A stretch of 64,000 nucleotides of DNA from Nitrosomonas sp. Is79A3 (lineage in GTDB: Bacteria > Pseudomonadota > Gammaproteobacteria > Burkholderiales > Nitrosomonadaceae), in assembly GCF_000219585.1 (NCBI RefSeq), contig NC_015731.1, forward strand, positions 62,001 through 126,000, read 5' to 3'. Position 1 is the stretch's first letter; the number at the start of each line of letters is the position of its first letter. Below the pieces are notes generated by a model. It had not been told where the DNA came from. It saw only the letters and a list, made by a program, of their open reading frames with translations, and searched no databases. A program made the position numbers and the translations under genes. This document shows, one piece after another, positions 6,122 to 36,523 of this stretch.

Positions 6122-6162
6122 CATATAGCCAAAATGCTACTACGTCTGTGCGACAACGCACA
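6122..6162 (-). promoter_or_regulatory. Crp/Fnr-type box a plus -10 of the PEP-CTERM gene
   Basis: The box TGTGCGACAACGCACA (6147-6162) is a near-perfect palindrome of the window-wide motif. On the minus strand TATATG (6122-6127) begins 19 bp after it, as in a class II activated promoter. The stretch TTGGCTATATGCTT around this -10 recurs exactly in the promoter at 31331. Confidence 0.7.
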
Positions 6163-6317
6163 AACATCTGATTTGTTAAAATATCTCCTTTTCTGCGATC
6201 GTTCCTTTTAACTTAATCGAAACTCTGATGCGCTGCGTTAATTGCTTTTGACATCGTGTTTAGATTCACATTTTTCCACTTCATTACACTATGCTGACCC
6301 CCGTATTTTATTTCTAA

Positions 6318-6457
6318 CAGGCCGTTGAAAAACTATCTGCGTTGCCGCTGCGGTGTTAAAAACAGACTCAAAATGCTCATTTACTAAGCATAAACTGCGC
6401 TTTTTCGCCTGTTTTTGCCTTGCATCGGCTGCCTCGAAAACGTTTTTCAACGGCCTG
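6318..6457. mobile_element. 140-bp MITE, copy 1
   Basis: Non-coding element with terminal inverted repeats CAGGCCGTTGAAAAAC and GTTTTTCAACGGCCTG. It is flanked by CTAA on both sides (6314-6317 and 6458-6461). A second copy in the opposite orientation lies at 12674-12813 and differs at about two positions. CTAA fits the YTAR target that I recall for the IS5 subgroup, so an IS5-type transposase elsewhere may move it. Confidence 0.88.
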
Positions 6458-6504
6458 CTAAGTGCAGCCGGAAGTAGAATTGTCTAGGAGGTGGTCAAAT
6501 TTGA

Positions 6505-7067
6505 TCAGGTGTTTTGCTTTCTGCGTCGCGATAGAAAACTGAGCAATCCCGGCTAGCAGCATGGCGTAGGTCTCTGGATCCGGGACTTGGGCAATCGGTG
6601 AAAGTAAGAATGCACGAGTCCCGTCACCCGGAAAATCCTTCAAGGACCCTCATCCAACGATCTGCCCACGACTGTTGATGGCAACTGCTGACAGCTCAAT
6701 CCATCCGGCGGTGACGACCGGCACAAGCAGCGAGAGATCGGTTATTATTTTGTCGCCATACAGAAAGAACTGTGCATGCAGTAGTCACAGAAACTATTTA
6801 ATCCCCCTACTTGCCCAAATCATTGATACTGTAAGCAATGCTGTAATCTCCATCCAAGATACCCCAGTCAATCATGCCCACGCCGTTTGCGCAGATAATG
6901 AAGGCCATCGCTTAACCGTAATTGTTGATAGCCTGGGTAACGCTGTTTGCTCCGCCTGAAGCGCCCAGTTCAACATTTAACCGGTCTGCACATGCAATTG
7001 CTGGAATCAAAACTATGAAAATTCCGGCGAGAAAGATTGCCGTGCATTTAAGTTTTGGAAGTTTCAT
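6505..7067 (-). pseudogene. Decayed HAF-repeat PEP-CTERM protein gene
   Basis: Read from the ATG at 7067, a signal peptide (MKLPKLKCTAIFLAG, ending ACA) leads into VELGASGGANSVTQAINNYG and then a stop. Further pieces in shifted frames are GDYSIAYSINDLGK, VVTAGWIELSAVAINSRG, GTRAFLLSPIAQVPDPETYA and finally GLLSFLSRRRKQNT before a TGA at 6505-6507. These are degenerate copies of the HAF repeat (LGTLGGxxSxAxAINxxGQVVG) plus a PEP-CTERM tail. At least two in-frame stops and two frameshifts break it. It lies just beside MITE copy 1. The ancestral protein was probably an exported HAF beta-propeller. No function remains. Confidence 0.8.
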
Positions 7068-7142
7068 GTTTATTACAACTTCCATTTAAATGGTTGATTA
7101 ACAAGTTAAATATAGATAGTTCGATAGATTCCCAGAACAATC

Positions 7143-8342
7143 TTAAAAAACTTCATTGCCGGTCGGTTCAGTGGGCATAACGGCATTCATGCTGCGCCTG
7201 AGATTGGCGGTGGATGTGTAAACCACTTTGCGAATTCGGTTGACCCCGCCGAGCGGACGATGTTCGAATACTGAGTGCCAAGGCGTGTATGAAAGATCCT
7301 CACAGAATTTGTGCTGCTCCGGTTTATCAAAATCCTGTTTGGGGATCGTGATCGTGGCGACTTTAAAAAAAGGCGCTATGCTTTCTTCCCATTCGTTTGT
7401 AGCCATCTCGACGCTAAGTGCTGTGCTTGCCGCTGTGCGGGTATCTCGCGTCTGAATCAGGAAATCGAAACAAGCATTATCTGCGTCGAGATGTTTTTTC
7501 ATCGCCGTGCGCAGGTAATTGGGATTCTGAAGTTGGTCTGCTTGCGGAGTGTTGTCCAATTGACCGCAAGGTTTCGCTGAAAATTTCATTGCGCGGCGGT
7601 TTGATCCGGTGCCGAGTTGATAAGGCACCATTGACCAGTAGCGCGTGTAAAGCGGGTTTCTGATTTTCTTACCATTGATTTTTGCCGCGATAATTGAGCC
7701 TTCGATCCCAAGTGAAAGGGGTGCGGACAATCTGGCCAACAGATTGGAACTGCTGAGCGACTCGATCAGACTCAGATATTTCTGCGGGTCGTTGATGAAA
7801 AACACAGGGTGATTGATCATCACGAAATCCTGAGTATGGCTCTCGTCGGGCAAGAGTTTTTCCCCGGGAACTCCCATCAGTTTGATTGCCATGCCGCGCC
7901 CGTCACCTTCTTTATCTTCGCGTGTTGGGTCGCTGTCACCGTTTGAAAAGCGAATCCAAGCCTTATAGTGCGCGCCGGGCTGGAATATGCCCTGCTGGTG
8001 TTCATCCGGCAGTGTCTTATTAACCTGGAAATCCGCGAGTACACAGCCATGCGCCTTAGAGTGAACATGGCGAAGCGCGGGTAGATCGTTCACATAGCGC
8101 GCATGGATTGTTTGCTGGATACTTTCCGCGATAGCCAAAGTTGTCGCTTCTTCTTCCGGCCAAGGCGATTCGCCGAGTTCTGCGTCAAATTCGATGTCAT
8201 TGGCTAACGTCAATTGATTGCCAGGTAGCTTTGTATTCGCAACCGCGCTGTCTTGTGGGGTACTGCAAGCGGTTACAAGGACTAAACTTAACAAAAGTAC
8301 TGCAAGAATCGGTAAAGTTAAGTAGGGGACTAATGGGTGCAT
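7143..8342 (-). CDS. Catalase-family (SrpA-like) lipoprotein
   Basis: A 399-aa protein with a lipoprotein signal (LSLVLVTACS, Cys 26) and a haem-catalase core. Diagnostic stretches are RHVHSKAHGCVLADFQV, which holds the catalytic His, then YKAWIRFSNGDSDPTREDKE, GRGMAIKLMGVPGE and TQDFVMINHPVFFIND. It lacks the full-length catalase C-terminal half and is of the compact catalase-related type that oxidises organic substrates or removes peroxide. Placement in the periplasm, probably on the outer membrane, is inferred from the lipobox. GAGGA stands 7 bp before the ATG. It follows the DUF1207 gene by 41 bp on the same strand, so the two probably share the promoter near 9700. The haem-ligating Tyr could not be placed by eye. 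Confidence 0.85.
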   Translation of the reverse strand: MHPLVPYLTLPILAVLLLSLVLVTACSTPQDSAVANTKLPGNQLTLANDIEFDAELGESPWPEEEATTLAIAESIQQTIHARYVNDLPALRHVHSKAHGCVLADFQVNKTLPDEHQQGIFQPGAHYKAWIRFSNGDSDPTREDKEGDGRGMAIKLMGVPGEKLLPDESHTQDFVMINHPVFFINDPQKYLSLIESLSSSNLLARLSAPLSLGIEGSIIAAKINGKKIRNPLYTRYWSMVPYQLGTGSNRRAMKFSAKPCGQLDNTPQADQLQNPNYLRTAMKKHLDADNACFDFLIQTRDTRTAASTALSVEMATNEWEESIAPFFKVATITIPKQDFDKPEQHKFCEDLSYTPWHSVFEHRPLGGVNRIRKVVYTSTANLRRSMNAVMPTEPTGNEVF

Positions 8343-8383: not shown

Positions 8384-9586
8384 CTAAAAATGGTAATGTA
8401 GCCCGAGGCCGATGTATTCAACTTTCTCCCTAAAGAACTGACCGGTAGGGGAATTGCCGTTGAAATACTCGGCAAGCACTTGAAATTTTCTGTTGAAGGC
8501 CTGGAAATTATCGAATTGAACGCCAGCCCGGGCGGATATGTCGGCGTTCCAATTGTTTTGCTCATGATTCTTGACGTCAACTGCCATAATTGGCCGCATT
8601 GCTGCGCTTTCTATACGCCATGGACTTCTGAATTCCAAGCCATATTGCACTGACCAGGGTTTGATGGTCGATGGTTCTTTATGAAAAATACCGCCGCCTC
8701 CGCCATAGACTCTTATCCCATAGGGAAGCTCATAAGAAAGCTTGAGATCGATGCCTTCATAGCTCAGATTGACACGCTCCAGGTTCGTCAGTTTTCTCAG
8801 TAAAAACTCATCGCCAAGATGAGAACTTTGATGATAGATACGGGCAAACGCCGATGCGTTATTCGCGCGCATACTGGAGTAGGCCGATGCAATAAAATCC
8901 GTGTTGATGAGATCGGATGAAGAAGCGCCCAGATTGAAATCACTGAAGACGGCGGCCTGAATACCTGTTTCCCATTGCACAATGGATTGCCCGATATTGG
9001 CGCGATAAAACGGTATCGTTTCACCAAAGCTAACCGAGCCATTGTTATTTCCATCAATGTTGTTGCCCACATAATTGCGATAAGCGGCTGAGAAATGAGC
9101 CCACCGCGGATCGGCGAGTAGCGGCTTAAACAAGTGGCCCTCGGGTAGCAGCCCGGTGGCTAGCATTGTTGAGCCTATTGCAGGCGTGCTTTTTTTAGGG
9201 AGAATTTCTTTATCCGGCACGGAAGCGGTCGCGACAGATCGCTGAACGGCGTGTTCTCCCATTTCCACTCTGGAGACTCCCGGTATCTCGGAAAGTATCT
9301 GCACAACTTTGGCGCGATCTCTTGCAGATATTTTATCGGCTGGTATCGTAATAGTCCCGTTACGTACAATTAATGCAGGAACATCAACTTTGAACTGATG
9401 TTTGAGAATTCCTGCGGCGTAACCAGCGATATAAGAATCATCAGGCATCGCAGCATTCACAGTGGATGACCCAAATAGCATGATCGCCATGATCAAAAGT
9501 AGCTGCGTTGTATTCCACCTTTTCTTATGGCTACGGCTTAAGCAAAACGCCGTCACGAGAGTATTCCGTATTTTGTATGTATTCAT
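8384..9586 (-). CDS. DUF1207 outer-membrane beta-barrel protein
   Basis: A 400-aa exported protein. After a long positively charged N-terminus and a hydrophobic stretch (about 29-45, ending VNA) comes a BON-like segment (NGTITIPADKISARDRAKVV), then the DUF1207 domain from about residue 125: LPEGHLFKPLLADPRWAHFS. It has the alternating strands of a barrel and ends in HYHF, a terminal aromatic typical of outer-membrane barrels. DUF1207 proteins have no established function. The true start could be the internal Met near residue 33 (MAIMLFGSSTVNA), which gives a standard signal peptide. It is the first gene of a two-gene unit with the catalase-related lipoprotein and has a regulatory box upstream. 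Confidence 0.82.
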   Translation of the reverse strand: MNTYKIRNTLVTAFCLSRSHKKRWNTTQLLLIMAIMLFGSSTVNAAMPDDSYIAGYAAGILKHQFKVDVPALIVRNGTITIPADKISARDRAKVVQILSEIPGVSRVEMGEHAVQRSVATASVPDKEILPKKSTPAIGSTMLATGLLPEGHLFKPLLADPRWAHFSAAYRNYVGNNIDGNNNGSVSFGETIPFYRANIGQSIVQWETGIQAAVFSDFNLGASSSDLINTDFIASAYSSMRANNASAFARIYHQSSHLGDEFLLRKLTNLERVNLSYEGIDLKLSYELPYGIRVYGGGGGIFHKEPSTIKPWSVQYGLEFRSPWRIESAAMRPIMAVDVKNHEQNNWNADISARAGVQFDNFQAFNRKFQVLAEYFNGNSPTGQFFREKVEYIGLGLHYHF

Positions 9587-9677: not shown

Positions 9678-9720
9678 AGTATTGCAGCGATCGCGTATTG
9701 AGTATGTGCGCTGGCGCACA
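9678..9720 (-). promoter_or_regulatory. Crp/Fnr-type box b, DUF1207-catalase promoter
   Basis: TGTGCGCTGGCGCACA at 9705-9720 is a near-perfect palindrome. On the minus strand AATACT (9678-9683) starts 21 bp after it, 92 bp before the DUF1207 start. The box lies in the divergent region with box c. Confidence 0.65.
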
Positions 9721-9819: not shown

Positions 9820-9861
9820 TGTTCGCTATCGCACAGATTTTGATGGGTATTGCGATTATTA
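9820..9861 (+). promoter_or_regulatory. Crp/Fnr-type box c, Gly-zipper lipoprotein promoter
   Basis: TGTTCGCTATCGCACA at 9820-9835, followed 20 bp later by TTATTA (9856-9861). The gene starts at 9919, so a leader of about 50 nt is expected. Confidence 0.68.
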
Positions 9862-10131: not shown

Positions 10132-10278
10132 CATCAGTAGTTACACAAATCTGCTCTCGGTGATTAAATTCCACTTACCTTTTAATATTGTGCCTTTGCA
10201 ATGGGAGCATCTGGGTGGAAGTGGTCTCGCTTAGCTAAGTCAACGGATCACTCTACCCTTCCTTCGAGAAAAGATCAC

Positions 10279-12411
10279 ATGGCGAATCGGGTTTTGATTA
10301 TCACGAGCGATGCCATCGACGCCAAGTCGCTAGAGAACGTGCTCAGCCAAGCAGAAGATGGCGCATTCGACATTGAATGGGTTACGTGCCTTTCCGAAGG
10401 ACTTGCGCGGCTGCGGGCAGGAGATTTCGACGCTATTCTGGTGGATTTGTTTCTGCCCGACAGTCAAGGCATTGCAACATTTGATCAGCTGTTCGCGGTT
10501 GTGCCTCAAACGCCGATCTTGACGCTCCATGCGAAAGATAATCATATGCTTGCAAAGGAAGCAATGCAACGTGGCGCGCAAGGTCATTTGTCGAAAGATT
10601 ACTTTAGTAACAGTCTGGTACCACACTCGCTCCGCAATATCATCCAGCGCAAAGCCGTCGAGGAATCTCTCTTCATAGAAAAAACCCGCGCTGAAATTAC
10701 GCTCGACTCCATCAGCGACGCAGTCATTAGCACGGATATGGCAGGCAATGTCGATTATCTGAATACTGCAGCAGAGAGTTTGACCGGATGGTTGAAAGAA
10801 GAAGCGTGCGGGTATCCAATTCGCGAGGTGATGCGAATTATCGATGGTAATACTTGCAACACAGTGCCTAATCCGGTCGAGTTGGTGCTGCAGCAAGACA
10901 AACCGATGACATTGGCTGCGGATACGATTTTGATCCAGCGCGATGGAAACGAAGTGGCAATTGAAGACTCCACCGCACCGATCCATGATTCAAACGGGCG
11001 GATTCGTGGCGCAGTGATTGTGTTTCACGATGTCACGCCGGCGCGGGCGAGAGTCGCGAAAATGGCCTATTTGGCGCAGCACGATTCTCTGACTAATTTA
11101 CCGAACCGTGCGGTACTGAATGACCGTATCACCCAAGCCATCGAATTGGCAAAACGGCGTGGCACTTACCTGGCGCTGCTATTTCTGGATCTGGATAATT
11201 TCAAGCACATCAATGATTCGCTCGGACATTCAATCGGCGATAAGCTCCTGCAGTCCATCGCACAAGACCTGAGCACCTGTGTGCGCAGTTCCGACACGGT
11301 TAGCCGGTTGGGCGGGGACGAATTCGTGATACTACTGACACAGGACAAGCATGCACAAGACGCTGCCCTGACTGCCGACAAGATACTTACTGTGTTGGCA
11401 AAGCCACATGCCATTGCTGAGCATCATGTTCTGTATGTAACGACCAGCATCGGAATCAGTGTTTATCCCGCTGATGGCCAGGACCCGGAAACATTGATTA
11501 AGAATGCGGATATCGCGATGTATCACGCCAAGGAAAGAGGCCGGAACAATTACCAGTTCTTCAAGAATGCCATGAATCTTCGTGCGTTTGAGCGATTAGC
11601 CATTGAGACTCATCTCCGGTATGCATTGATGCGGCAGGAATTCGTCTTGTATTACCAGCCTAAGGTCAACCTGGATAGCGGGAAGATCACCGGTGCCGAG
11701 GCATTGTTGCGCTGGAAGCATCCGGAATGGGGTTTAGTACTGCCGGATCGCTTTGTGCAGATTGCAGAAGATTGCGGCTTGATCGTGCCGATCGGCCGCT
11801 GGGTGTTACGCGAAGCCTGCGCGCAAGCCAAGCGCTGGGAAGCAGCGGGATTGAAACTGGGATCAATCGCCGTGAATATCTCGGCGCTGGAATTTCGCTT
11901 CAAAGATTTCGTTGCGGGCGTGCAATTAATTTTGAACGAAACCGGGTTCGATCCCTGCCATCTGCAACTGGAAATTACCGAAAGCGTATTGATGCGCGAT
12001 GTCGAAACCAGCAACATGATACTTCAGCAACTTAAGGAGATGGGGATACAGCTGGCGGTGGATGATTTTGGCACAGGCTACTCCAGTTTGAGTTACCTGC
12101 ATCAATTTTCGATCGATATCCTCAAAATCGACCAGTCGTTTGTGCGGGATATCAGTTGTGATAACGGAATCATCGCGAGCGCTGTTATCGCCATGGGCGC
12201 CAGCCTTAAGCAACTGGTAATCGCCGAAGGTGTAGAGAAACAGGATCAGTTAGCCTTTCTGAAAACACAGCATTGCGAAGAAGGGCAAGGTTATTTTTTT
12301 AGCCGGCCAATTATCGCGGAGCAATTTGCACAACTGCTGGCAACAGGGCGATGCGATAAGCAAGAAAATCAGGGAAGTAATGATGAGTACCGTAGCGCAA
12401 CTATTGCGTAA
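10279..12411 (+). CDS. Response-regulator PAS-GGDEF-EAL protein (c-di-GMP turnover)
   Basis: A 710-aa cytoplasmic signalling protein. Order: receiver domain (about 1-120, with VDLFLPDSQG holding the presumed phospho-Asp), PAS (about 135-250, ITLDSISDAVISTDMAGNVD), GGDEF (about 260-430) and EAL (about 445-700). The cyclase motif SRLGGDEFVILL is intact, with an RSSD inhibitory I-site five residues before it. The EAL domain keeps AEALLRWKHPE, NISALEF, LEITESVLM, DDFGTGYSSL, KIDQSF and AEGVEK, so both activities are possible. I chose the ATG at 10279 (MANRVLIITSD) because it starts the receiver directly; the frame is open from 10201. No kinase gene is adjacent, so its input is unknown. No motif box precedes it. 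Confidence 0.9.
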   Translation: MANRVLIITSDAIDAKSLENVLSQAEDGAFDIEWVTCLSEGLARLRAGDFDAILVDLFLPDSQGIATFDQLFAVVPQTPILTLHAKDNHMLAKEAMQRGAQGHLSKDYFSNSLVPHSLRNIIQRKAVEESLFIEKTRAEITLDSISDAVISTDMAGNVDYLNTAAESLTGWLKEEACGYPIREVMRIIDGNTCNTVPNPVELVLQQDKPMTLAADTILIQRDGNEVAIEDSTAPIHDSNGRIRGAVIVFHDVTPARARVAKMAYLAQHDSLTNLPNRAVLNDRITQAIELAKRRGTYLALLFLDLDNFKHINDSLGHSIGDKLLQSIAQDLSTCVRSSDTVSRLGGDEFVILLTQDKHAQDAALTADKILTVLAKPHAIAEHHVLYVTTSIGISVYPADGQDPETLIKNADIAMYHAKERGRNNYQFFKNAMNLRAFERLAIETHLRYALMRQEFVLYYQPKVNLDSGKITGAEALLRWKHPEWGLVLPDRFVQIAEDCGLIVPIGRWVLREACAQAKRWEAAGLKLGSIAVNISALEFRFKDFVAGVQLILNETGFDPCHLQLEITESVLMRDVETSNMILQQLKEMGIQLAVDDFGTGYSSLSYLHQFSIDILKIDQSFVRDISCDNGIIASAVIAMGASLKQLVIAEGVEKQDQLAFLKTQHCEEGQGYFFSRPIIAEQFAQLLATGRCDKQENQGSNDEYRSATIA

Positions 12412-12673
12412 CACACCACAACTAACCACTAACTCTTCTCAATGACACTGATATTTTATCTACCGATGATCTCTTATAGCTGGCACCCCTGCTTTCCCGA
12501 TTGCCTCATCTATTTTTCTCCATCATCTTTGCCGAATGCTGCCTGCCGCAAGCGGGAAGTGCAATGATCTGCGAGGAAAATCATGAAAAATATTAATGTT
12601 ATAAATGTCTTAAAAAAAATCATTTGTATTTCTCCTTCAATTTGGCAGGCAGTCGAAAGTTCGTTCCATTTAG

Positions 12674-12813
12674 CAGGCCGTTGAAAAACGTTTTCAAGGC
12701 AGCCGATGCAAGGCAAAAACAGGCGAAAAAGCGCAGTTTATGCTTAATAAATGAGCATTTTGAGTCTGTTTTTAACACCGCAGCGGCAACGCAGATAGTT
12801 TTTCAACGGCCTG
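12674..12813. mobile_element. 140-bp MITE, copy 2 (inverted relative to copy 1)
   Basis: Same element as at 6318-6457 in reverse orientation, flanked by TTAG at 12670-12673 and 12814-12817, the reverse complement of the CTAA flanks of copy 1. It sits in the gene-poor stretch 12412-13607, which otherwise holds two gene remnants and one regulatory box. Confidence 0.88.
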
Positions 12814-12956
12814 TTAGAATTAATCGGCAATTCCGGCTATCCTATTTGCAGCCTACAGCACGATGCGGCCGTAGTCTGTTCGTTGCCGAACTGAGAATAA
12901 ACTTAGCGCAAACCAGAAGTGAATGAAGAACGGTTCTACCCGCGTAGCTATTATTT

Positions 12957-13129: not shown

Positions 13130-13145
13130 TGTACGCTAGCGTACA
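13130..13145. promoter_or_regulatory. Crp/Fnr-type box d, perfect palindrome
   Basis: TGTACGCTAGCGTACA is a perfect 16-bp palindrome of the motif. It lies 81 bp before the remnant of a BON-domain lipoprotein gene. I see no good -10 at the usual distance, which fits a decayed promoter. Confidence 0.62.
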
Positions 13146-13226
13146 GAGTGGGCACGACTAATCCGGGACAATTGCCATTGTGGAAAACATTATGAATGTT
13201 AATAATAAATTAACGGACTAACACTG

Positions 13227-13383
13227 ATGCTGATGGGCATTTTGTCAATCGTGGGTTGCGACATGATCGAAGGCAAAGCATCGCATCGCAATCTGATACC
13301 AAATGACGGTAGGAATAGAAGTGGATGACAGTGTCTCAACCACAGCAGTAAAGTCTGCTTTGCTTAAAGACACCGGTCTGTAA
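13227..13383 (+). pseudogene. Remnant of a BON-domain lipoprotein gene
   Basis: The first frame gives MLMGILSIVGCDMIEGKAS, like the end of a lipoprotein signal with its Cys, and stops soon after. A shifted frame then gives VDDSVSTTAVKSALLKDTGL before a TAA at 13381-13383, which matches the start of a BON domain (VDDxxITxxVKxALL). At least one frameshift and a premature end break it. BON proteins such as OsmY are stress-induced and exported. The box at 13130 probably served this gene. Confidence 0.55.
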
Positions 13384-13607
13384 TGAGCGTCGAGAAGTAA
13401 CAATGCGAAGTACTTTCATACCTTTAATGTATTCCACAGGCAAGTTAAGTGCTTGGTACAAATTAGTTTTCGTGCCAGCAGCGTATTTTTTAATTTGGAT
13501 CAAAAATGGCGCGCGATTTTAATATTCCACCGCTGAGTAAACTAATGCAAGAAGTCAAGCGCATTGTACAGATCCAAACTCAGCCTATTTATATACAGGT
13601 TATTCCC

Positions 13608-15737: not shown

Positions 15738-16598
15738 TTATCTTGTGGCTGTGTTTGCGATGATGATTTCAACGCGACGGTTTTGCTGACGACCGGATGC
15801 GGATTCATTGTCGTTGATTGGAAAGTTTTCACCTTTGCCATATGCCGCGAGCCGGTTAGAAGCGACACCCTGGTGGATCAGATAGGTCATCACCGAGTTT
15901 GCACGCCGTTGCGACAAGCCTAAGTTAAAGTCTTCGCTGCCGACATTATCAGTATGACCTTCTATCATCACCGTGCGATCCGGATACTGGTTCAGGAAAG
16001 CCGCAAGTTTGCCAAGATGGCTGGCTGCACCACCCTTGAGAGTCGCTTTGCCGGTATCAAACAGCAGATCGCCCAGCGTTACGACCAGACCGCGGTCTGT
16101 GGCTTTGGCATTCAACTCTGCAATCTGTTTTTGCAGATCCGCGGCTTGTTGCAGTGCTATCTCTGTGTCCATGTTGGCTAAATTCGCCTCTCTTCGCGCA
16201 GCAGTTGCCTCGCTGTGCGCTCTGTCGGCTTCGCGTGTGCGCGAATCAAGACGCGCGTTATCGCGTTGCTCGCTGAGCATTTTGCGCTGATCTTCTGATA
16301 AACGGCTTTGTGCCTGGAACGTGGCAATATCGATCTTGCGATCAGCCATAAACACCAGATGCTTGCCTAGACCTACATCTTCCTGCGGTACTTCTGCAGC
16401 ACGCACCGCAAGTTCAGCTTCCTGAATCGCAACCGGTGCGCGGCTGGCCAGTTGCGGATCAGATTGTAGTTGTATCAACTTGTTCCGGGCCATGTCGGCA
16501 CCTTCCGGTTTTATCGGCCCGGCCGAGCACGCGGCAAAAATAACGGGTGTTAGCGTGATGGCGATCAATTTTTTAAATCGATAGATTTGCGTGTTCAT
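15738..16598 (-). CDS. OmpA-family lipoprotein with DUF4398 region
   Basis: A 286-aa outer-membrane lipoprotein: signal with lipobox (TPVIFAACSA, Cys 23), a DUF4398-type helical region (about 25-95), a long Ala/Arg/Glu-rich coiled coil (about 95-165), and a C-terminal OmpA domain. The OmpA domain shows FDTGKATLKGGA, EGHTDNVGSEDFNLGLSQRR and GKGENFPINDNESASGRQQN with RRVEI. The OmpA domain binds peptidoglycan, so the protein ties the outer membrane to the wall. It overlaps the upstream DUF4398 gene by 4 bp (ATGA), so the two are translationally coupled and likely act together. Their shared promoter probably carries box e. Confidence 0.9.
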   Translation of the reverse strand: MNTQIYRFKKLIAITLTPVIFAACSAGPIKPEGADMARNKLIQLQSDPQLASRAPVAIQEAELAVRAAEVPQEDVGLGKHLVFMADRKIDIATFQAQSRLSEDQRKMLSEQRDNARLDSRTREADRAHSEATAARREANLANMDTEIALQQAADLQKQIAELNAKATDRGLVVTLGDLLFDTGKATLKGGAASHLGKLAAFLNQYPDRTVMIEGHTDNVGSEDFNLGLSQRRANSVMTYLIHQGVASNRLAAYGKGENFPINDNESASGRQQNRRVEIIIANTATR

Positions 16599-17011
16599 TG
16601 TTTGTCTCCCGTATTGCGTTGCATTTCTTGCTTCATGACGTCGGTACTTTTCAGCATTTCATCGTTGATTGCCTTGGCCTTGATTGCCTCAGCCTTGGCT
16701 AAAGCTAATTCGGCATCAACACGTGACTGTTCGGCAAGTTGCTGGGCCAAGATCATTTTCTCCTGCTGGACGGCAGCACGAGCTTCGGCAAGTTTTGTAC
16801 GCGCCTCATGCAGTTCAGCGGATGCATAGTCCACGGCGCGTGCTTGATCGGCACTGGTAATTGCCATTTCTGCGGCTGCTAGTTGCTGGTTTGGGGGCTG
16901 CGGAACTGTCGCACAAGCAGCGAGTGAGAACAGAATCGCAACGGCGGTTATAAGCTGCAACGGTGATTTGTGCGTGCCCATCACTTTCATTATTGTAGGT
17001 CTTTGAGTCAT
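16595..17011 (-). CDS. DUF4398 coiled-coil lipoprotein
   Basis: A 138-aa lipoprotein (signal ITAVAILFSLAACATVP, Cys near 30). It has a long helical DUF4398 domain of heptad-like Ala/Glu/Gln runs such as AELHEARTKLAEARAAVQQE. The frame is open from 17104, but AGGAGA stands 7 bp before the ATG at 17011 and decides the start. DUF4398 proteins are periplasmic and often encoded next to an OmpA-family lipoprotein, as here with a 4-bp overlap. The likely job is envelope structure or stress protection, which is inference. A Crp/Fnr-type box and -10 lie 50-90 bp upstream. Confidence 0.82.
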   Translation of the reverse strand: MTQRPTIMKVMGTHKSPLQLITAVAILFSLAACATVPQPPNQQLAAAEMAITSADQARAVDYASAELHEARTKLAEARAAVQQEKMILAQQLAEQSRVDAELALAKAEAIKAKAINDEMLKSTDVMKQEMQRNTGDKQ

Positions 17012-17061
17012 GTTGATTCTCCTGAATGGAATTTTCGGCGTAGCATTCAACCTTGTGATCA

Positions 17062-17103
17062 TTATCATCAGACTCAGTGAGCAATTCTGTGCGCTATCGT
17101 ACA
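17062..17103 (-). promoter_or_regulatory. Crp/Fnr-type box e, DUF4398-OmpA promoter
   Basis: TGTGCGCTATCGTACA at 17088-17103, one mismatch from a perfect palindrome. On the minus strand TGATAA (17062-17067) follows after 20 bp, and the coding start is at 17011. Confidence 0.7.
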
Positions 17104-17288
17104 TAGCCCTTATTTCTTAGTCAGGTCATTTCGGAGGTCAAACAAAGTCGATGCAAAACGAGAGGCTGTGCGTTATTCGTTCTGTTCACAAACTGAATTG
17201 TTGACGATATAGCGTATAAGTACGGATCAACGATCCGTTTTGTGCAACTGAGGCGTACTTGCCAGAATATGTCGAGCCCCCCTTTAAG

Positions 17289-17395
17289 AACCTCTGAATA
17301 ACTGTCATTTCGAGCAGAGCGAGAAATCTATACTGTTGATTGCCAAAGATTCCTCACTACGTTCGGAATGACAAAGGTGAGTTATTCAGAGATTC
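17289..17395. repeat. Interspersed repeat with inverted ends, copy 1
   Basis: About 107 bp. The ends TCTGAATAACTGTCATTTCGA and, inverted, TCTGAATAACT then GTCATTCCGA form an imperfect hairpin. A direct second copy lies at 34866-34976 with a few changes and a 3-bp insertion. It is non-coding and MITE- or REP-like. Confidence 0.8.
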
Positions 17396-17472
17396 CTTTA
17401 TCTAGCGCCGTGGCACTTTAGCTTTTGTCTCAGCGAACGTGAAACCAGCCAGCGGTGGTGGTTATGCTCATT

Positions 17473-18314: not shown

Positions 18315-18330
18315 TGTTCGCTACGACACA
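18315..18330 (-). promoter_or_regulatory. Imperfect Crp/Fnr-type box g
   Basis: TGTTCGCTACGACACA, with one good half site (TGTTCG) and a weaker second half. It lies 102 bp before the regulator that starts at 18213. No clear -10 appears at the standard distance. Confidence 0.45.
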
Positions 18331-19209: not shown

Positions 19210-19249
19210 AGAGTAACCCAAATCAGCTTTTTTTGTTCGCTATCATGCA
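19210..19249 (-). promoter_or_regulatory. Crp/Fnr-type box h, regulator promoter
   Basis: TGTTCGCTATCATGCA at 19234-19249, one good half and one weak half. On the minus strand TACTCT (19210-19215) follows after 18 bp, and the regulator starts at 19180. Confidence 0.52.
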
Positions 19250-19338: not shown

Positions 19339-19379
19339 TGTGCGCTATCGCACAGATCCTTCCCGGTTTAATGTATTTA
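19339..19379 (+). promoter_or_regulatory. Crp/Fnr-type box i, matches the consensus exactly
   Basis: TGTGCGCTATCGCACA at 19339-19354. TATTTA (19374-19379) begins 19 bp after it. The first gene downstream starts at 19538, giving a leader of about 150 nt. Confidence 0.72.
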
Positions 19380-20128: not shown

Positions 20129-20168
20129 TGTGCGGTATCGTACAGACGTTTCTTGGCGCTGGTAATAA
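20129..20168 (+). promoter_or_regulatory. Crp/Fnr-type box j, lipoprotein promoter
   Basis: TGTGCGGTATCGTACA at 20129-20144. TAATAA (20163-20168) begins 18 bp later. The coding start is at 20255. Confidence 0.7.
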
Positions 20169-23672: not shown

Positions 23673-23713
23673 TGTGCGGCACCGTACATACGGCAGCCGA
23701 TTCGTACTGTAAT
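23673..23713 (+). promoter_or_regulatory. Crp/Fnr-type box k, DUF883-YqjE unit
   Basis: TGTGCGGCACCGTACA at 23673-23688. TGTAAT (23708-23713) begins 19 bp later. The region after the box is homologous to that after box p (33097), part of an old duplication. Confidence 0.7.
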
Positions 23714-24164: not shown

Positions 24165-24452
24165 ATGGCAACAACAGATGAATTTAGTAAAGAGATGGAA
24201 CAGTTAAAAAAGGATTTGAACAGTCTGCGGTCAGACATTGGATCGTTGGTGACTTCAGTGAAGGATTTGGCGGGAAAGCAAAGTGACAGGGTTGTCGATC
24301 TGGCTCATGATGCGGAAAAGCAGGTGCGCGACCAGACTAAAGCGGCCGGAGAAAGTGTGGAAAAGTATATCGAAGAACGTCCGCTTACCAGTGCGCTTGT
24401 CGCTTTCGGCAGCGGTTTCGTGATCGGTATGCTACTGAGTAATAAACGTTAA
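24165..24452 (+). CDS. DUF883 (ElaB/YqjD-like) protein, copy 1
   Basis: A 95-aa tail-anchored protein: charged helical part (FSKEMEQLKKDLNSLRSDIG), then a C-terminal hydrophobic anchor (SALVAFGSGFVIGMLLSNKR). This is the ElaB/YqjD/DUF883 layout. Enteric members are inner-membrane proteins that bind ribosomes in stationary phase under RpoS. GGAGAA lies 8 bp before the ATG. A closely related paralogue lies at 33252, with the last 26 residues identical. It is followed after 13 bp by a YqjE-like gene, the same order as yqjD-yqjE in enterics. Confidence 0.88.
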   Translation: MATTDEFSKEMEQLKKDLNSLRSDIGSLVTSVKDLAGKQSDRVVDLAHDAEKQVRDQTKAAGESVEKYIEERPLTSALVAFGSGFVIGMLLSNKR

Positions 24453-31176: not shown

Positions 31177-31192
31177 CGTGCGTTGCCGCACT
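31177..31192 (+). promoter_or_regulatory. Crp/Fnr-type box m (no clear -10)
   Basis: CGTGCGTTGCCGCACT, core GTGCG-N4-CGCAC palindrome. It lies 110 bp before box n and 208 bp before the gene at 31400. No -10 is seen at the usual distance, so it may be an upstream second site. Confidence 0.5.
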
Positions 31193-31301
31193 TAGTTGTC
31201 TAATAATTCCCATTTCAAAAAGTGGTGCACATATTCTTATTTAGCTTATGCGTAGTTCAAACTCAATCAGTGGATATTCTCAATTGATTTAATTCCCCAT
31301 T

Positions 31302-31342
31302 CGTACGGTATCACACAGACGCATCAGCACCTTGGCTATATG
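31302..31342 (+). promoter_or_regulatory. Crp/Fnr-type box n, Cys-repeat protein promoter
   Basis: CGTACGGTATCACACA at 31302-31317. TATATG (31337-31342) begins 19 bp later. The stretch TTGGCTATATGCTT is identical to that in the box a promoter. Confidence 0.68.
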
Positions 31343-31399
31343 CTTAAACAAATCAGGTACATTACTGCCTGATTTGTTTAATAATTTCAAGGAGTTAAA

Positions 31400-31813
31400 A
31401 TGAATAAATTCAATATCGGTTCGATCCTGGTAGCGCTTGGCCTTGCATTTGGCGGAAGTGCCATTGCGCAAAATATATCCAAAGATGAACACGAAGCAGC
31501 GGAAAAAAGTATCGTAGCCCAGTATAAATTGGACAAGGAAAAATGCGAATCCCTGACTGGCAATGCAGAAGACATCTGCGTGGCCGAAGCGAAGGGAAAG
31601 GAAAAAGTAGCAAAAGCAGAGCTTGAAGCTAAATTCAAACCTTCCAAAGAAGCCGCCTATAAAGTAAGTGTTGCCAAAGCAGAAGCGAATTACGATGTGT
31701 CCAAAGAAAAATGTGATGACATAGCAGGCAATGAGAAGGACGTGTGCGAAAAAGCCGCGAAAGCCATATTAGAGCAAGCCAAATCTGAAGCTAAAGCGAA
31801 GCAGCACCATTGA
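31400..31813 (+). CDS. Exported Cys-repeat, Lys/Ala/Glu-rich protein
   Basis: A 137-aa periplasmic protein with a signal peptide (ILVALGLAFGGSAIAQ). The mature part holds two similar segments (about residues 43-70 and 96-122). The first has YKLDKEKCESLTGNAEDICV, the second YDVSKEKCDDIAGNEKDVCE. Each segment has two Cys spaced by ten residues, C-x9-10-C, which could form a disulfide hairpin or bind metal. The linker is long and helical. I have seen similar C-x-GN-x-DVC proteins in betaproteobacteria but know no function. AAGGAG is 7 bp before the ATG. Two boxes stand upstream and a strong terminator follows. Confidence 0.76.
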   Translation: MNKFNIGSILVALGLAFGGSAIAQNISKDEHEAAEKSIVAQYKLDKEKCESLTGNAEDICVAEAKGKEKVAKAELEAKFKPSKEAAYKVSVAKAEANYDVSKEKCDDIAGNEKDVCEKAAKAILEQAKSEAKAKQHH

Positions 31814-32015: not shown

Positions 32016-32056
32016 TGTGTACTAACGTACATACCTGCACAGAATTTGCCTATATC
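32016..32056 (+). promoter_or_regulatory. Crp/Fnr-type box o, PRC-barrel unit
   Basis: TGTGTACTAACGTACA at 32016-32031. TATATC (32051-32056) begins 19 bp later. The next start codon is at 32137. Confidence 0.65.
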
Positions 32057-32250: not shown

Positions 32251-32670
32251 ATGAGCTACGAAGATCGCGATACCTACGGTATGTACAAAAACACTAACGA
32301 AAGTGGACCCGGACCTGCCCTTATGGGCGCAGACACCCTGATTGGAAATGATGTCCATAATCATAAAGGGGAAGATTTGGGTGACATCAAAGAAATTATG
32401 TTAGACACGAAAAGCGGGAAAGTATGCTACGCCGTGCTGTCCTTCGGTGGTTTCTTAACGATAGGGGAAAAACTTTTTGCAGTGCCGTGGGATGCGTTGA
32501 CACTCGATACGGAGCACAAGTGTTTTGTATTAAATGAAGAGAAAGATCGACTCAAAGCAGCGCCAGGATTCGATAAGGATAACTGGCCCGATATGGCCGA
32601 CGAAACATGGGCGAAAAGTATCCATTCCTATTATGGGACGGAATCAAACACGCCTGAAACGCGTATTTAA
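32251..32670 (+). CDS. PRC-barrel domain protein
   Basis: A 139-aa soluble protein. The PRC-barrel lies at about 25-105: LMGADTLIGNDVHNHKGEDL, GDIKEIMLDTKSGKVCYAVL, SFGGFLTIGEKLFAVPWDAL. The tail has a W-x-D-M-A-D-E-x-W run. PRC-barrels occur in photosynthetic reaction centres and RimM, and stand-alone bacterial ones are often stress-induced. The exact role is unknown. AGGAG lies 8 bp before the ATG. It belongs to the box o unit and is followed by a terminator. Confidence 0.86.
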   Translation: MSYEDRDTYGMYKNTNESGPGPALMGADTLIGNDVHNHKGEDLGDIKEIMLDTKSGKVCYAVLSFGGFLTIGEKLFAVPWDALTLDTEHKCFVLNEEKDRLKAAPGFDKDNWPDMADETWAKSIHSYYGTESNTPETRI

Positions 32671-32719
32671 CGGTTCCGATTATTTCCTCTCCTTCTCGCT
32701 GTTTCAGCTTGCGTGGATT

Positions 32720-32752
32720 AGCCCTCTTAGTTTTTAAGAGGGCTTTTATTTT
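32720..32752 (+). terminator. Rho-independent terminator of the PRC-barrel gene
   Basis: Stem GCCCTCTTA with TAAGAGGGC and then TTTTATTTT, about 50 bp past the stop. Confidence 0.9.
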
Positions 32753-32804
32753 CACCGGATTTTTATTCGGCGGGATAGCTTATCCGAATCGCAATCCTGA
32801 ATAT

Positions 32805-32936
32805 ATTTGTGGTAGCCGCATTGACTACTTTTTCAAGCCTTATCTGTTCAATCGCGGAAGTAATTTTTCTCTTCTCCTATCGGTATTTTCATTGACCCTT
32901 ATCAAGGCCGTGAGCATTACCTTCGTACAGTTTTAG
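32805..32936 (+). pseudogene. Remnant of a duplicated AI-2E transporter 3' end
   Basis: The frame reads IDYFFKPYLFNRGSNFSLLL, then VSITFVQF. This matches IDNFVRPYLISRGSSLSFLL and ITLVQLW of the intact transporter (22536-23642). About 14 codons in the middle are missing and the end has a new stop. Nucleotide identity continues along the GGTATTTTCAT and GCATTACC stretches. It is the left part of a decayed duplication that includes box p and the second DUF883 copy. Confidence 0.72.
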
Positions 32937-33096
32937 ACAGTAGCAATGGCTGCGGAAACAGAGAATATTCTGCAAAATAAACAGTGACATCTGATCATGC
33001 AGAGTGGGTACCAATGAATTGCTACTCACCGGGACCAATTTACCATTTGATCGAAGCATGCACCTTGAATAATTATCCGTACTCATCCGCATCCTT

Positions 33097-33139
33097 TGTG
33101 TGTCACCGTACATACCGCAGACAATTGGTGCGGTATTGT
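33097..33139 (+). promoter_or_regulatory. Crp/Fnr-type box p, second DUF883 promoter
   Basis: TGTGTGTCACCGTACA at 33097-33112. TATTGT (33134-33139) begins 21 bp later. The sequence around it is homologous to that of box k. Confidence 0.6.
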
Positions 33140-33251: not shown

Positions 33252-33539
33252 ATGGCATCAGCAGATGAGTTTAGCAAAGAAATGGATCAACTCAGAAAGG
33301 AATTCACCACCCTTCGGAATGAACTAGGATCGTTGATGACGTCAGTGAAGGATCAGGCAGGCAAGCAAGGTGAGAAGGTTGTCGACTTGGCTCAAGGCAC
33401 TGGAAAAGCTGTACGCAATCAGGCTAAGGCGGCCGGGAAAAGTATCGAGAAAACTATCGAAGAACGCCCGCTTACCAGCGCGCTTGTTGCCTTCGGCAGT
33501 GGTTTTGTGATTGGTATGCTACTGAGTAATAAACGCTAA
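33252..33539 (+). CDS. DUF883 (ElaB/YqjD-like) protein, copy 2
   Basis: A 95-aa tail-anchored protein, paralogue of the one at 24165. The charged helix differs (MASADEFSKEMDQLRKEF), while the last 26 residues are the same (IEERPLTSALVAFGSGF and the anchor). AGGAGAA lies 8 bp before the ATG. Unlike copy 1 it is followed by a dead YqjE fragment, so it now acts without that partner. The conserved reading frame against a decayed surround suggests that selection kept the DUF883 gene. Confidence 0.87.
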   Translation: MASADEFSKEMDQLRKEFTTLRNELGSLMTSVKDQAGKQGEKVVDLAQGTGKAVRNQAKAAGKSIEKTIEERPLTSALVAFGSGFVIGMLLSNKR

Positions 33540-33552
33540 ACGGTCGGCATAA

Positions 33553-33797: not shown

Positions 33798-34691
33798 TTA
33801 AACTTTACAGTAGGAAGGAATCCAGCTTTTTTCGATAATGTAATCAGGCAAGTGGTTAAAATCAAACGCTTCGCCGTCTTTAATCATCTGTTTGACGTCA
33901 AATAGTTTGGCAACTTCCGGGATATCGTTAAAGAACAAGGTGTAAAACGGTTTTACTAGCCATTTGGAGATCCGTATCCCGATAGGGCCGATGAAGTTTC
34001 TGCGTTGTCCGACATGGGCGACTTCATCAATGGTAATTTCATCGAGCAGCTCTTTTAAACGCTTTTGTACTTCTGGTTCATCAACCAATAATTCGTCGAT
34101 CAGACGATTTAGATGGCAATAGTAAGTAACGCCCATCAGTTCCGTCACAAAAGCGGGCGAATCCATTAGAAATCCTGGAAATTTAGGAAATTGTTCGTAG
34201 ATTTTTTCTTTAATTGGACTTAACGGTACCCACTCCACTTCATCCAGACCGCAAGTACGCAGCATTTCATCGAACAAGCGGACATGGCAAAATTCTTCCG
34301 CCAAGTGAACACGGCTGATTTTGTCTTCAACCGAGTGCGAATTGGCCATATTGGGTACCACATCCCAGGCGCCCTTGATGCCAACCCACTCATGGCGAGC
34401 GAATTTATACATACCCGTCAACATGAGTGTCATGCGATCCAATGTTTGGGGATCATCCTGCATGACAATATAGTTGCGATAGAAAGCTTCGGGATTGACA
34501 AGCGGTATGCGTAACTGAACGGGATTGTCTTGAAAGTACTGAAACTTGGCACGTTTTTTTACTAAATCTTTGTCATCTTCAAGCAGCTCTCCACTGTGAT
34601 GCTGAGTAAAGAGCCAATAATTTTCAAAATTTTTAGTGCGTTCTTGTTTGGATGCGGATGTGAAAATAGAGCGAAATTTTGGTATTGTCAT
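33798..34691 (-). CDS. Ferritin-like diiron protein
   Basis: A 297-aa soluble protein of helical type. Two metal-binding motifs can be seen: HLAEEFCHVRLFDEML (E-E-x-x-H, about 130) and EITIDEVAHVGQRRNF (E-x-x-H with acidic residue, about 218). This is the pattern of a four-helix-bundle diiron carboxylate protein. Such proteins include AurF-like oxygenases and acyl desaturase-like enzymes. The substrate is unknown. No signal peptide is present. The minus-strand gene has box q with a CATATT -10 upstream, and it lies close to a membrane desaturase with the same promoter type. The two may modify lipids under the same condition; this is inference. Confidence 0.74.
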   Translation of the reverse strand: MTIPKFRSIFTSASKQERTKNFENYWLFTQHHSGELLEDDKDLVKKRAKFQYFQDNPVQLRIPLVNPEAFYRNYIVMQDDPQTLDRMTLMLTGMYKFARHEWVGIKGAWDVVPNMANSHSVEDKISRVHLAEEFCHVRLFDEMLRTCGLDEVEWVPLSPIKEKIYEQFPKFPGFLMDSPAFVTELMGVTYYCHLNRLIDELLVDEPEVQKRLKELLDEITIDEVAHVGQRRNFIGPIGIRISKWLVKPFYTLFFNDIPEVAKLFDVKQMIKDGEAFDFNHLPDYIIEKSWIPSYCKV

Positions 34692-34790: not shown

Positions 34791-34830
34791 AATATGCAAA
34801 CACAGGGTTAGTTCTGTGCATTAAAGCACA
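34791..34830 (-). promoter_or_regulatory. Crp/Fnr-type box q, diiron protein promoter
   Basis: TGTGCATTAAAGCACA at 34815-34830, a palindrome that keeps TGTGC and GCACA but differs in the centre. On the minus strand CATATT (34791-34796) begins 18 bp after it. The gene starts at 34691. Confidence 0.55.
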
Positions 34831-34865
34831 GAACGCCTATGTGTGATACCACTCATACTTTAATG

Positions 34866-34976
34866 AACCTCTGAATAACTGTCATTTCGAGCACTACAGC
34901 GAGAAATCTATACTGTTGATTGCCAAAGATTCCTCACTCCGTTCGGAATGACAAAGGTGAGTTACTCAGAGACTCC
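34866..34976. repeat. Interspersed repeat with inverted ends, copy 2
   Basis: Same sequence and orientation as 17289-17395, with a 3-bp insertion (CACTACAGCG for CAGAGCG) and a few substitutions. It ends 46 bp before the stop codon of the small DUF3309 gene. Confidence 0.8.
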
Positions 34977-35021
34977 TGAATGCTATGCTTTTTGCGTACT
35001 CATCCAATGCCAATGATGGCG

Positions 35022-35180
35022 CTATATTCGGCCCATCAGCAACAGAATGAGCAAGATCAGCACCACTGTTCCAAGGATACCGCTGGGGAAATAACCCCAC
35101 TCCCTGCTATGTGGCCACGTGGGAATCGCGCCAATTAGCATCAGAATCAGAATGATTAAAAGTATTGTTCCTACCGACAT
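35022..35180 (-). CDS. Small membrane protein, DUF3309 family
   Basis: A 52-aa protein (MSVGTILLIILILMLIGAIP, then WPHSREWGYFPSGILG and a second helix VVLILLILLLMGRI). Two hydrophobic helices around a W-P-H-S-x-x-W-G-Y-x-P-S-G loop are the DUF3309 signature. AGGAG lies 9 bp before the ATG at 35180. It follows the desaturase gene by 21 bp on the same strand, so it is probably co-transcribed from box r. The function is unknown; DUF3309 genes often sit with stress genes. Confidence 0.86.
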   Translation of the reverse strand: MSVGTILLIILILMLIGAIPTWPHSREWGYFPSGILGTVVLILLILLLMGRI

Positions 35181-35201
35181 TTTATTTCTCCTTCCTAACG
35201 A

Positions 35202-36392
35202 TTAGTCGTAACAACGTAGTTTTTGGGAGAATTCTTGTAATGCACTGATGTCGCTCTCCTCGGCACGCCGGCACCAGTTTTCCAGTTGCTTTACCAGCTG
35301 CTCTTTGGAGGTCGTGGAACTGCTCCATAAGGCGGCCAGATCTTGTCGCATTGAGTAGATCGTACTTAGTTTCTGACTGGAATGGAGCGCCTGGTCCAAG
35401 GCCACCCGTTCTTTTTCCGCTATCTTACTGATATCATTTTGCAGCCAATGCCTGACTGCCTCGAGGGCCTGTGCATCTTGCAGACCCGGAATAGCTTGCG
35501 CACGCAGATTGCGAATCTCGGATATTGTGGGCTGCTTCAGGTATTTTGCAAACTTGGCCAGCACGTCGAAGCGGTGGGTGATCACGGCCTGCAAAGTTCC
35601 CTCGTCGCAGGGCGTCTTAGGCAGACTAAAGCGAACCTTAGGTGCCACCTTACATACCGTGGCCAAGCCCAGCATTTCCAGAATGCGAATGTACATCCAG
35701 CCGATATCAAATTCCCACCATTTGCTGGACAACTTGGCGGAAGTCACGTAGGCATGGTGATTGTTGTGCAGTTCTTCGCCGCCGATCAAAATGCCCCATG
35801 GCAGGATGTTCGTGGAAGTGTCATTCGGTGAGAAATTGCGATACCCGTAATAGTGCCCTACACCGTTGATGACGCCGGCGGCGAAGAGTGGAATCCACAG
35901 CATCTGCACGCCCCATACGATGAATCCGACCGGACCGAATAGCACCAGATCAATCGCCAACATGATGCCGATACCCAGTGCCGGATGCGGCGAGTATACA
36001 TGGCGCTCGACCCAGTCATCGGGAGTGCCATGGCCGTATTTATCGAGCGTTGCGGTATTCTTAGCTTCGATACAATAAAGCTTAGTGCCTTCGAACAACA
36101 CTTTGCCGATGCCATGAATCTGCGGGCTGTGCGGATCTTCGACGGTTTCGCACTTGGCATGGTGCTTCCGATGAATAGCTACCCATTCTTTGGTGATCAT
36201 TCCGGTGGTAAGCCATAGCCAAAAGCGGAAGCAGTGGCTCACAATGGGATGCAGCGTTAGCGCATGGTGCGCCTGGTGCCGGTGGAGGAAAATCGTCACG
36301 GAAGCGATGGTCATGTGTGTCATGATTAGCGTAACCAACGCATAACCCCACCACGGAAGTTCAAATAAGCCAAGTTGCATAAATTGTTGCAT
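35202..36392 (-). CDS. Membrane fatty-acid desaturase (delta-9 type)
   Basis: A 396-aa inner-membrane diiron enzyme that puts a double bond into acyl chains. The three histidine boxes are visible: HRHQAHH (about 38), HRKHH (about 75) and HNNHH (about 208), with hydrophobic helices between. About 120 residues beyond the domain form a helical C-terminal extension without a known motif. Desaturation keeps membranes fluid, for example in cold or stress. The minus-strand gene has box r with a CATATT -10 upstream and leads a small unit with the DUF3309 gene. It is divergent from a Crp/Fnr gene. Confidence 0.9.
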   Translation of the reverse strand: MQQFMQLGLFELPWWGYALVTLIMTHMTIASVTIFLHRHQAHHALTLHPIVSHCFRFWLWLTTGMITKEWVAIHRKHHAKCETVEDPHSPQIHGIGKVLFEGTKLYCIEAKNTATLDKYGHGTPDDWVERHVYSPHPALGIGIMLAIDLVLFGPVGFIVWGVQMLWIPLFAAGVINGVGHYYGYRNFSPNDTSTNILPWGILIGGEELHNNHHAYVTSAKLSSKWWEFDIGWMYIRILEMLGLATVCKVAPKVRFSLPKTPCDEGTLQAVITHRFDVLAKFAKYLKQPTISEIRNLRAQAIPGLQDAQALEAVRHWLQNDISKIAEKERVALDQALHSSQKLSTIYSMRQDLAALWSSSTTSKEQLVKQLENWCRRAEESDISALQEFSQKLRCYD

Positions 36393-36482
36393 AAATAATT
36401 AGATCCTTCATTTAAATGAATCCAGGCAAAACGCTAACGGATTAATCAGCCATTGCAGCTATCGCCGATGGACATATATAAA

Positions 36483-36523
36483 AATATGCCAAATCTGCTG
36501 TCATTTCTGTGCGCTATCACACA
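36483..36523 (-). promoter_or_regulatory. Crp/Fnr-type box r between desaturase and regulator
   Basis: TGTGCGCTATCACACA at 36508-36523. On the minus strand CATATT (36483-36488) begins 19 bp later, matching the desaturase. On the plus strand TATGAA begins at 17 bp, a weaker fit to the regulator at 36612. The single box could serve both genes. Confidence 0.66.

Follow-up and report, generated by a model that had tools for sequence, protein, structure and literature searches.

The question raised by this locus is which protein, if any, acts at a short palindrome that stands repeatedly before the genes of a stress-gene island in the chromosome of Nitrosomonas sp. Is79A3. The DNA examined, referred to here as the window, is the whole 64,000-nucleotide stretch from 62,001 to 126,000 of NC_015731.1, and positions are those of the window unless a chromosomal position is indicated. 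The element concerned is a 16-bp palindrome, TGTNCG-N4-CGNACA, recurrent before island genes, and three genes encoding Crp/Fnr-type proteins (18452, 36612 and 17473) lie within the same island. On the evidence set out below, which is drawn from sequence comparisons, the box is probably the operator of an island-encoded Crp/Fnr-type activator, which would drive a set of predicted envelope and stress genes in addition to its own gene.

The box is clustered within the island

A preliminary description of the window had listed 16 copies of the box, and each of these 16-mers was found exactly where it had been placed. Searching with the strict consensus, allowing up to three mismatches, recovered 8 of the 16 listed positions and gave 16 matches over both strands, compared with 0.86 expected and a maximum of 4 in 100 shuffles. 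A palindromic matrix was then built from the 16 sites, with scores of at least 14 regarded as strong and at least 12 as a looser cut-off; C5 is present in 26 and G6 in 28 of the 32 half-sites. The scan revealed 16 places scoring 14 or more in the 5–37 kb region, comprising every listed site except 31177 (13.4) together with 29898, and a single place (3516) between 0 and 5 kb. The 37–64 kb region, which had been described as free of the box, contains no place even at a score of 12. In total, the 17 strong places in the window compare with a mean of 0.47 and a maximum of 6 for 200 column-permuted palindromic matrices, bearing out the claim that the recurrence exceeds chance, and strong matches are rare outside the island, with only 2 places in a 400-kb sample of evenly spaced chromosomal stretches. 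The clustering of a palindromic box in the island is confirmed. The two unlisted matches both lie within long open frames, that at 29898 in an arginase-family frame, and are probably due to chance.

To avoid circularity, each site was also scored with a matrix derived from the other 15 and compared with the same 400-kb sample. Twelve of the 16 sites were equalled by at most one place in the sample, whereas 18315 (two equal places), 19234 and 34815 (five each) are marginal, and 31177, with a score of 10.3 and 13 equal places, has no support of its own. The earlier statement that each box precedes a gene or gene remnant is corrected in one case, in that the box at 13130 precedes a decayed BON-lipoprotein gene, as opposed to 13506. 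The remnant of this gene (13146–13500) contains stop codons and frameshifts, its box being undamaged, and an intact copy is present in a related locus, L039.

The box precedes orthologous regulator genes in other species

The effect of moving to other species was examined with the best 80 of at least 561 relatives of P0001, the regulator encoded at 18452, as obtained from a scan of genome contigs (76–93% identity, best-segment values). Members of this subfamily were found in many genera, including Pseudomonas, Nevskia, Colwellia and Nitrosomonas, in a metagenome-assembled genome (MAG) of the Desulfovibrionaceae, and on plasmids. The comparison of orthologue promoters that had been suggested at the outset showed that 55 of the 80 regulator genes have a box scoring at least 12 within 300 bp upstream, and in a set of relatives from the same genus or order 13 of 20 have a box of at least 14 within 420 bp. 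The 80 loci contain 194 boxes at a score of 14 or more, whereas 40 column-permuted matrices average 8.9 and reach 31 at most. Three Nitrosomonas loci were dropped from the symmetry count and from the tests of density, −10 spacing and −35 elements, leaving 77. In these, the 300 bp preceding the regulator carry boxes at a density of 240 per 100 kb, against 6.5–18 elsewhere within 10 kb, and no box of 14 or more occurs over the 700 bases that follow the regulator start. Greedy open frames account for 91% of the sequence of the 80 loci, yet contain 107 of the 194 boxes (55%); the depletion (p 1e-40) is given little weight, as neighbouring boxes are not independent and frame starts are not trusted.

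A matrix-free count, requiring perfect symmetry at five arm positions with every spacer from 0 to 12, was also conducted on the 77 upstream regions. TGT.CG with a 4-base spacer ranked first, occurring in 27 regions, with the next arm in 4. G6 is found in 182 of the 194 boxes of relatives, which were selected with the window matrix, and the matrix-free count yields G6 independently. Consensus sites for CRP, FNR and CooA were each absent from the 77 upstream regions, an NtcA-like GTA-N8-TAC was present in six, and the window has no CRP sites, so that the original distinction of the box from the FNR and CRP consensus is upheld.

Closer to the source genome, the box upstream of 18452 is identical in a Nitrosomonas MAG, differs by one change in Nitrosomonas sp. 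Nm132 and by two in N. nitrosa Nm90, and in each case the flanks have diverged. In a further genome (G001) a box, TGTACGATACCGTACA, is found at the aligned place but farther from the gene; a regulator match in another genome of the genus (G016) lies at 32318–33040. Co-occurrence was assessed in 61 genomes from the same genus and its order, including the source genome, by scoring the regulator at E <1e-40 (a partial match in G046 was uncounted) and the strict box TGTNCGNTANCGNACA. The regulator is present in 23 genomes and the box in 24, with both in 20, the regulator only in 3, the box only in 4 and neither in 34, giving a Fisher p of 2e-9 that is optimistic in that the genomes are related; the reversed-pattern control gave p 0.34. 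Strict places total 58 across these genomes versus 13 for the reversed pattern. Tested in other species, the assignment of the box as a Crp/Fnr site is thus borne out by its conservation before the orthologous regulator, its genomic co-occurrence with it and a fixed −10 spacing, described below. With the same site before the regulator and its neighbours in several genera, the arrangement is that of a predicted self-regulated local regulon, and the conserved upstream boxes suggest that the regulator would switch on its own gene.

Several observations weigh against this assignment. No box of at least 12 was found within 300 bp of 25 of the 80 named orthologues, among them L108, for which only 87 bp of upstream sequence is present, and 7 of the 20 genus and order relatives have no box of at least 14 within 420 bp. 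The strong regulators of G005, G021 and G057 are not accompanied by a strict box, and a strict box without the regulator is found in G009, G020, G022 and G023. The orthologues on pKLC102 and on a Burkholderia multivorans plasmid have no box before the regulator (best scores 6.3, 4.0 and 1.6), although a box scoring 14.4 precedes the desaturase gene of pKLC102. Finally, strict boxes are few in 20 genomes of the named relatives, 19 of them outside Nitrosomonas (22 places versus 8 reversed), and the idea that every host has an extensive, genome-wide regulon was accordingly rejected.

Candidate proteins for binding the box

P0001, the predicted binder of the box, matches PF13545 (HTH_Crp_2) with 57.3 bits (cut-off 27) and PF00027 (cNMP_binding) with 29.6 bits (cut-off 27.5), and with a cyclic-nucleotide-type N-terminal domain and a Crp-type helix-turn-helix is by sequence a member of the CRP/FNR superfamily. 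The AlphaFold2 model has a CRP fold (predicted local distance difference test 85.7, predicted template modelling score 0.84), with the nucleotide-cassette stretch at about residues 71–100 modelled at confidences of 63–81 by block. Structure searches with the model placed CRP/FNR folds on top, with FNR, mycobacterial CRP, GlxR and NtcA among the nearest, and sequence searches against solved structures returned the same superfamily. These data, together with the boxes before orthologues, strongly suggest that the box would be bound by the protein at 18452, the protein at 36612, or both. A P0001 dimer would be expected to bind a box centred at about −41.5.

It is quite possible that the sister regulator P0003 (36612) or the paralogue P0002 (17473) is what binds the box, or that the box is shared with cross-talk, as opposed to being specific to 18452. 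P0003 is 65% identical to P0001, has its own box at 36508 and has a near-identical recognition helix (NMLGVRREG[VI]TDAA common to both), because of which the two proteins are indistinguishable as binders; in addition, genomes with only a 38–57% regulator type (e.g. G013 and G030) carry boxes too. Conversely, the orthologues for which upstream boxes were examined are those 76–93% identical to 18452, and P0002, which is 36% identical to P0001 and has a cNMP_binding match slightly under the cut-off, differs in its recognition helix and is preceded by no more than a marginal box. One or both of the sisters at 18452 and 36612 may share the sites.

Promoter geometry and the sign of control

The best −10 hexamer, from a scan of offsets 10–31 on the gene side of all 16 sites, lies 18–21 nt after the box in 13 cases, as had been reported, the exceptions being 18315, 19339 and 31177, and the commonest spacing is 21 nt. 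In an exact-spacing test on 15 oriented sites (31177 omitted; 19339 and 36508 oriented toward their minus-strand genes), 7 score at least 2.5 at precisely 21 nt, compared with 2.8% at other offsets. Of 52 autoregulatory sites from other genera (box of at least 12), 63% carry a −10 hexamer at a distance of 20 or 21 nt, versus a mean of 5.1% and a maximum of 15.4% for other adjacent spacing pairs, and for 254 flanks of other boxes in relatives, with both sides mixed, the only peak lies at 21 nt (z 9.7). A −35 element (at least 4 of 6 matches to TTGACA, spacer 16–18) accompanies 4 of the 52 autoregulatory sites, compared with 12.4% of 1040 random places, and none of the 16 window sites has a −35-like hexamer.

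With the −10 hexamer taken to occupy −12 to −7, a 21-nt spacing puts the box centre at −41.5, where CRP and FNR bind at class II promoters, and a 20-nt spacing puts it at −40.5. The class II geometry proposed earlier is thus reproduced, and these promoters, which combine the predicted centre and a −10 hexamer with −35-like hexamers no commoner than background, are by sequence of the class II Crp-dependent type. Since the box takes the place of the −35 element, activation is the probable sign of control, and the bound activator would turn on those island genes that are predicted to serve the envelope and stress responses.

It is unlikely that the regulator, once bound to the box, acts as a repressor that occludes the promoter: the box does overlap the promoter region, and Crp-type proteins are able to repress, but an exact 20–21 nt spacing without a −35 element is the pattern of a class II activator, whereas a repressor needs no fixed phase.

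Relationship to known Crp/Fnr systems

The box system shares with CRP the 16-bp register, the TGT/ACA arms, the class II position and the CRP fold, and differs in that the A5 of CRP is replaced by C5-G6. The classical CRP consensus, TGTGA-N6-TCACA, has 12 perfect sites in the chromosome (control 0), all of them outside the window, which indicates that the two specificities are separate, and with no such site in the 77 upstream regions a site of the cAMP-CRP type was rejected. The 12 sites appear to constitute a separate, classical CRP-like regulon. To our knowledge, the site architecture most similar to that of the box is that of the Crp cluster G protein Clr from Sinorhizobium meliloti, HGTYHC-N4-GRWACA, with cAMP and cGMP as effectors (PMC10127613). 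The core of the Clr site, GTNNC-N4-GNNAC, has a different conserved base at position 6 (C) from the island box, in which C5 and G6 are conserved, and a cluster G site was rejected on this basis.

The cysteines that hold the 4Fe-4S cluster of FNR include N-terminal ones. The first cysteine of P0001 is residue 145, and only 145, 222 and 224 are invariant over 30 sequences, so that the N-terminal cysteines are absent; the FNR/ANR site, TTGAT-N4-ATCAA, differs from the box, and an FNR type was likewise rejected. At least four cysteines are named for the cluster in PMC8510549. It is very unlikely, then, that the island is an ordinary low-oxygen locus of the FNR/ANR type such as lxa of Burkholderia cenocepacia, which is described in PMC6127331 as a 50-gene stress cluster including a BON protein; the likeness in content is offset by the absence of cysteines before residue 145 and of FNR sites in the 77 upstream regions. 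The least credible explanation, that the boxes represent a small repeat that has spread, or leftovers of gene duplication, without a regulator, draws on a 49-nt inverted pair (78% alike) that holds two boxes and on the duplicated DUF883-type genes, and is contradicted by the unrelated appearance of the flanks of most other boxes, the fixed −10 spacing and the first rank of the same half-site in the matrix-free count from other genera.

The motif TGTNCG-N4-CGNACA was not found among the matches listed in a search of the open-licence literature, a scope that most subscription papers lie outside; the string TGTNCG in a Vibrio paper is a degenerate primer, and the other occurrence was in a primate rhadinovirus paper.

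The Crp/Fnr proteins are a very common group, in which neither the DNA site nor the signal is known for many of the subfamilies. One such subfamily here gains a specific and testable predicted DNA code with a list of targets, and the matrix can be applied to any genome.

Predicted targets and role of the regulon

Targets were sought in the 80 loci by taking the longest frame on either side that begins within 350 bp of a box, an approach that partly includes off-target frames; clusters were named only if present in at least two loci, one representative of each being searched against Pfam, with 104 singleton frames left out. The regulator itself is the candidate target in 53 loci, followed by a very long protein (20 loci), PRC-barrel and BON proteins (9 loci each) and an ATP synthase alpha/beta-type subunit (6 loci). 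CsbD, DUF883, DUF3309, DUF5670 and DUF4398 proteins, desaturase, cyclopropane synthase, glucoamylase and phosphoglucomutase occur in 2–3 loci each. Some clusters are probably not genes, for example a 97-aa cluster (15 loci) whose representative is antisense to the regulator and has no Pfam match. Genes near the regulator are annotated as glycoside hydrolase family 94 on pKLC102 and as a glucoamylase family on a B. multivorans plasmid, and we read these long genes as the same family as the 20-locus cluster. The window has candidate targets of the same types (Table 1), namely two DUF883-type genes, both below the cut-off, and PRC-barrel, DUF4398/OmpA, DUF5670 and desaturase genes, as well as GGDEF-EAL, DUF1207, PEP-CTERM and decayed BON genes. 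The DUF883-type protein at 24165–24452 is presumably YqjD/ElaB-like.

CsbD, DUF883 and BON (OsmY-like) proteins are members of stress regulons elsewhere. The predicted targets are mostly of envelope and stress types, which argues, with moderate confidence, for a role in envelope or osmotic stress, and the signal may be a stress of this kind rather than cAMP or oxygen. CsbD, DUF883 and BON members are held in common with general stress regulons of the RpoS type, control in the island being exerted instead by a predicted Crp-type operator. No RpoS match above the curated cut-off was found in the genome (best 274.4 bits versus 378.7), and because of this the Crp-type circuit could feasibly stand in for part of the role of RpoS. 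If so, CsbD, BON, DUF883, PRC-barrel, desaturase and glucan enzyme genes would have a control system in an ammonia oxidiser without an RpoS match above that cut-off.

On pKLC102 and a B. multivorans plasmid, too, a desaturase gene is found no more than 5 kb from the regulator, which speaks for transfer of the set. Tentatively, the locus may belong to a mobile stress island with a private Crp/Fnr-type activator and an operator distinct from the CRP and FNR codes of its hosts, conferring an RpoS-like envelope-stress programme across several phyla, including hosts without RpoS. The desaturases at 35202–36392 and at L075:10690-11895 both match a transposase model, ISL3, towards the C-terminus, at 43.5 and 36.7 bits and thus above the cut-off, reflecting either a fusion or an ill-drawn Pfam model.

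The box elsewhere in the chromosome

In the chromosome (3,783,444 bases, one contig), TGTGCGN4CGCACA with at most one mismatch occurs at 23 places, compared with 5 for the reversed control. Eight of these lie within the window, and the 15 outside indicate that the regulon would extend to other loci. Gene context was assigned for 11 of the 15 (all but 791850, 1269303, 1692037 and 1755695). Seven were judged intergenic before genes, disregarding overlapping frames shorter than 150 aa (chromosomal positions 28725, 1328924, 1645368, 2276720, 2279353, 2439419 and 2827520), and four lie within long open frames and were taken as chance (12257, 1657621, 2392050 and 2614907). Boxes from the strict or matrix searches precede BON-like lipoproteins (24566, 28725), CsbD-like proteins (3236128, 2827520), a PAS-type signalling gene (940539) and, at 2276392, a small protein that we take to be SmbP-like. 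A further Crp/Fnr paralogue (C1:3233303) has a box at 3233167, 78 nt before its open frame; apart from this paralogue, the genes were named by sequence likeness as opposed to a family scan. Four boxes within 4.4 kb (C1:2276392-2280763) form a second small regulon cluster, upstream of small proteins of periplasmic appearance and of a frame that resembles an outer-membrane efflux protein. Two separate matching pieces at C1:3762827-3763436 represent another Crp/Fnr paralogue of the family, probably broken.

Features of the island

Table 1. Boxes, regulators and selected genes of the window
Feature	Coordinates	Strand	Context or evidence
Crp/Fnr-type regulator P0001, 242 aa	18452–19180	−	Pfam, fold model, orthologue boxes
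Crp/Fnr-type regulator P0002	17473–18213	−	third regulator
Crp/Fnr-type regulator P0003	36612–37355	+	second regulator
Box TGTGCGACAACGCACA	6147–6162		before PEP-CTERM protein 5487–6056 (−); −10 TATGCT at 21 nt
Box	9705–9720		before DUF1207 gene 8384–9586 (−) and catalase-like 7143–8342 (−)
Box	9820–9835		before 9968 and receiver-PAS-GGDEF-EAL gene 10201–12411 (+); −10 TATTAT at 21 nt
Box	13130–13145		before decayed BON-lipoprotein gene; intact version L039:17010-17345
Box	17088–17103		before DUF4398 gene and OmpA/DUF4398 gene 15738–16598 (−); −10 GATAAT at 21 nt
Marginal box	18315–18330		before P0002
Marginal second box	19234–19249		before P0001
Perfect-consensus box	19339–19354		between P0001 (−) and DUF5670 gene (+)
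Box	20129–20144		before 92-aa lipoprotein-like gene 20207–20485 (+); −10 TAAAAT at 21 nt
Box	23673–23688		about 480 bp before DUF883-type gene
Weak box, unsupported alone	31177–31192		leave-one-out
Box	31302–31317		before 137-aa secreted-looking protein 31400–31813 (+); −10 TATGCT at 21 nt
Box	32016–32031		before PRC-barrel gene; −10 TATCGT at 21 nt
Box	33097–33112		before second DUF883-type gene 33252–33539 (+); −10 TATTGT at 21 nt
Marginal box	34815–34830		before 33798–34691 (−), gene without Pfam match
Box	36508–36523		between desaturase (−) and P0003 (+)
DUF883-type protein	24165–24452	+	weak DUF883 and DUF883_C matches, below cut-off
PRC-barrel protein	32251–32670	+	Pfam
DUF3309-like frame	35022–35180		behind desaturase; likeness to DUF3309 match of L056
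Fatty acid desaturase	35202–36392	−	Pfam

The frame of the DUF4398 gene downstream of the box at 17088 is 16595–17104, and its real start is probably further in. No RNA element matched Rfam at the gathering score in the 5–38 kb region. The inverted pair formed by 6116–6164 and 31300–31348 has the box and the −10 hexamer TATGCT in each copy, such that a whole promoter seems to have been duplicated in inverted orientation before unrelated genes. An 80-nt direct repeat (17318–17397 and 34898–34977, 96% alike) lies between island genes, and a 157-nt inverted repeat (6308–6464 and 12667–12823, 97% alike), with one match in L039, is possibly a small mobile repeat.

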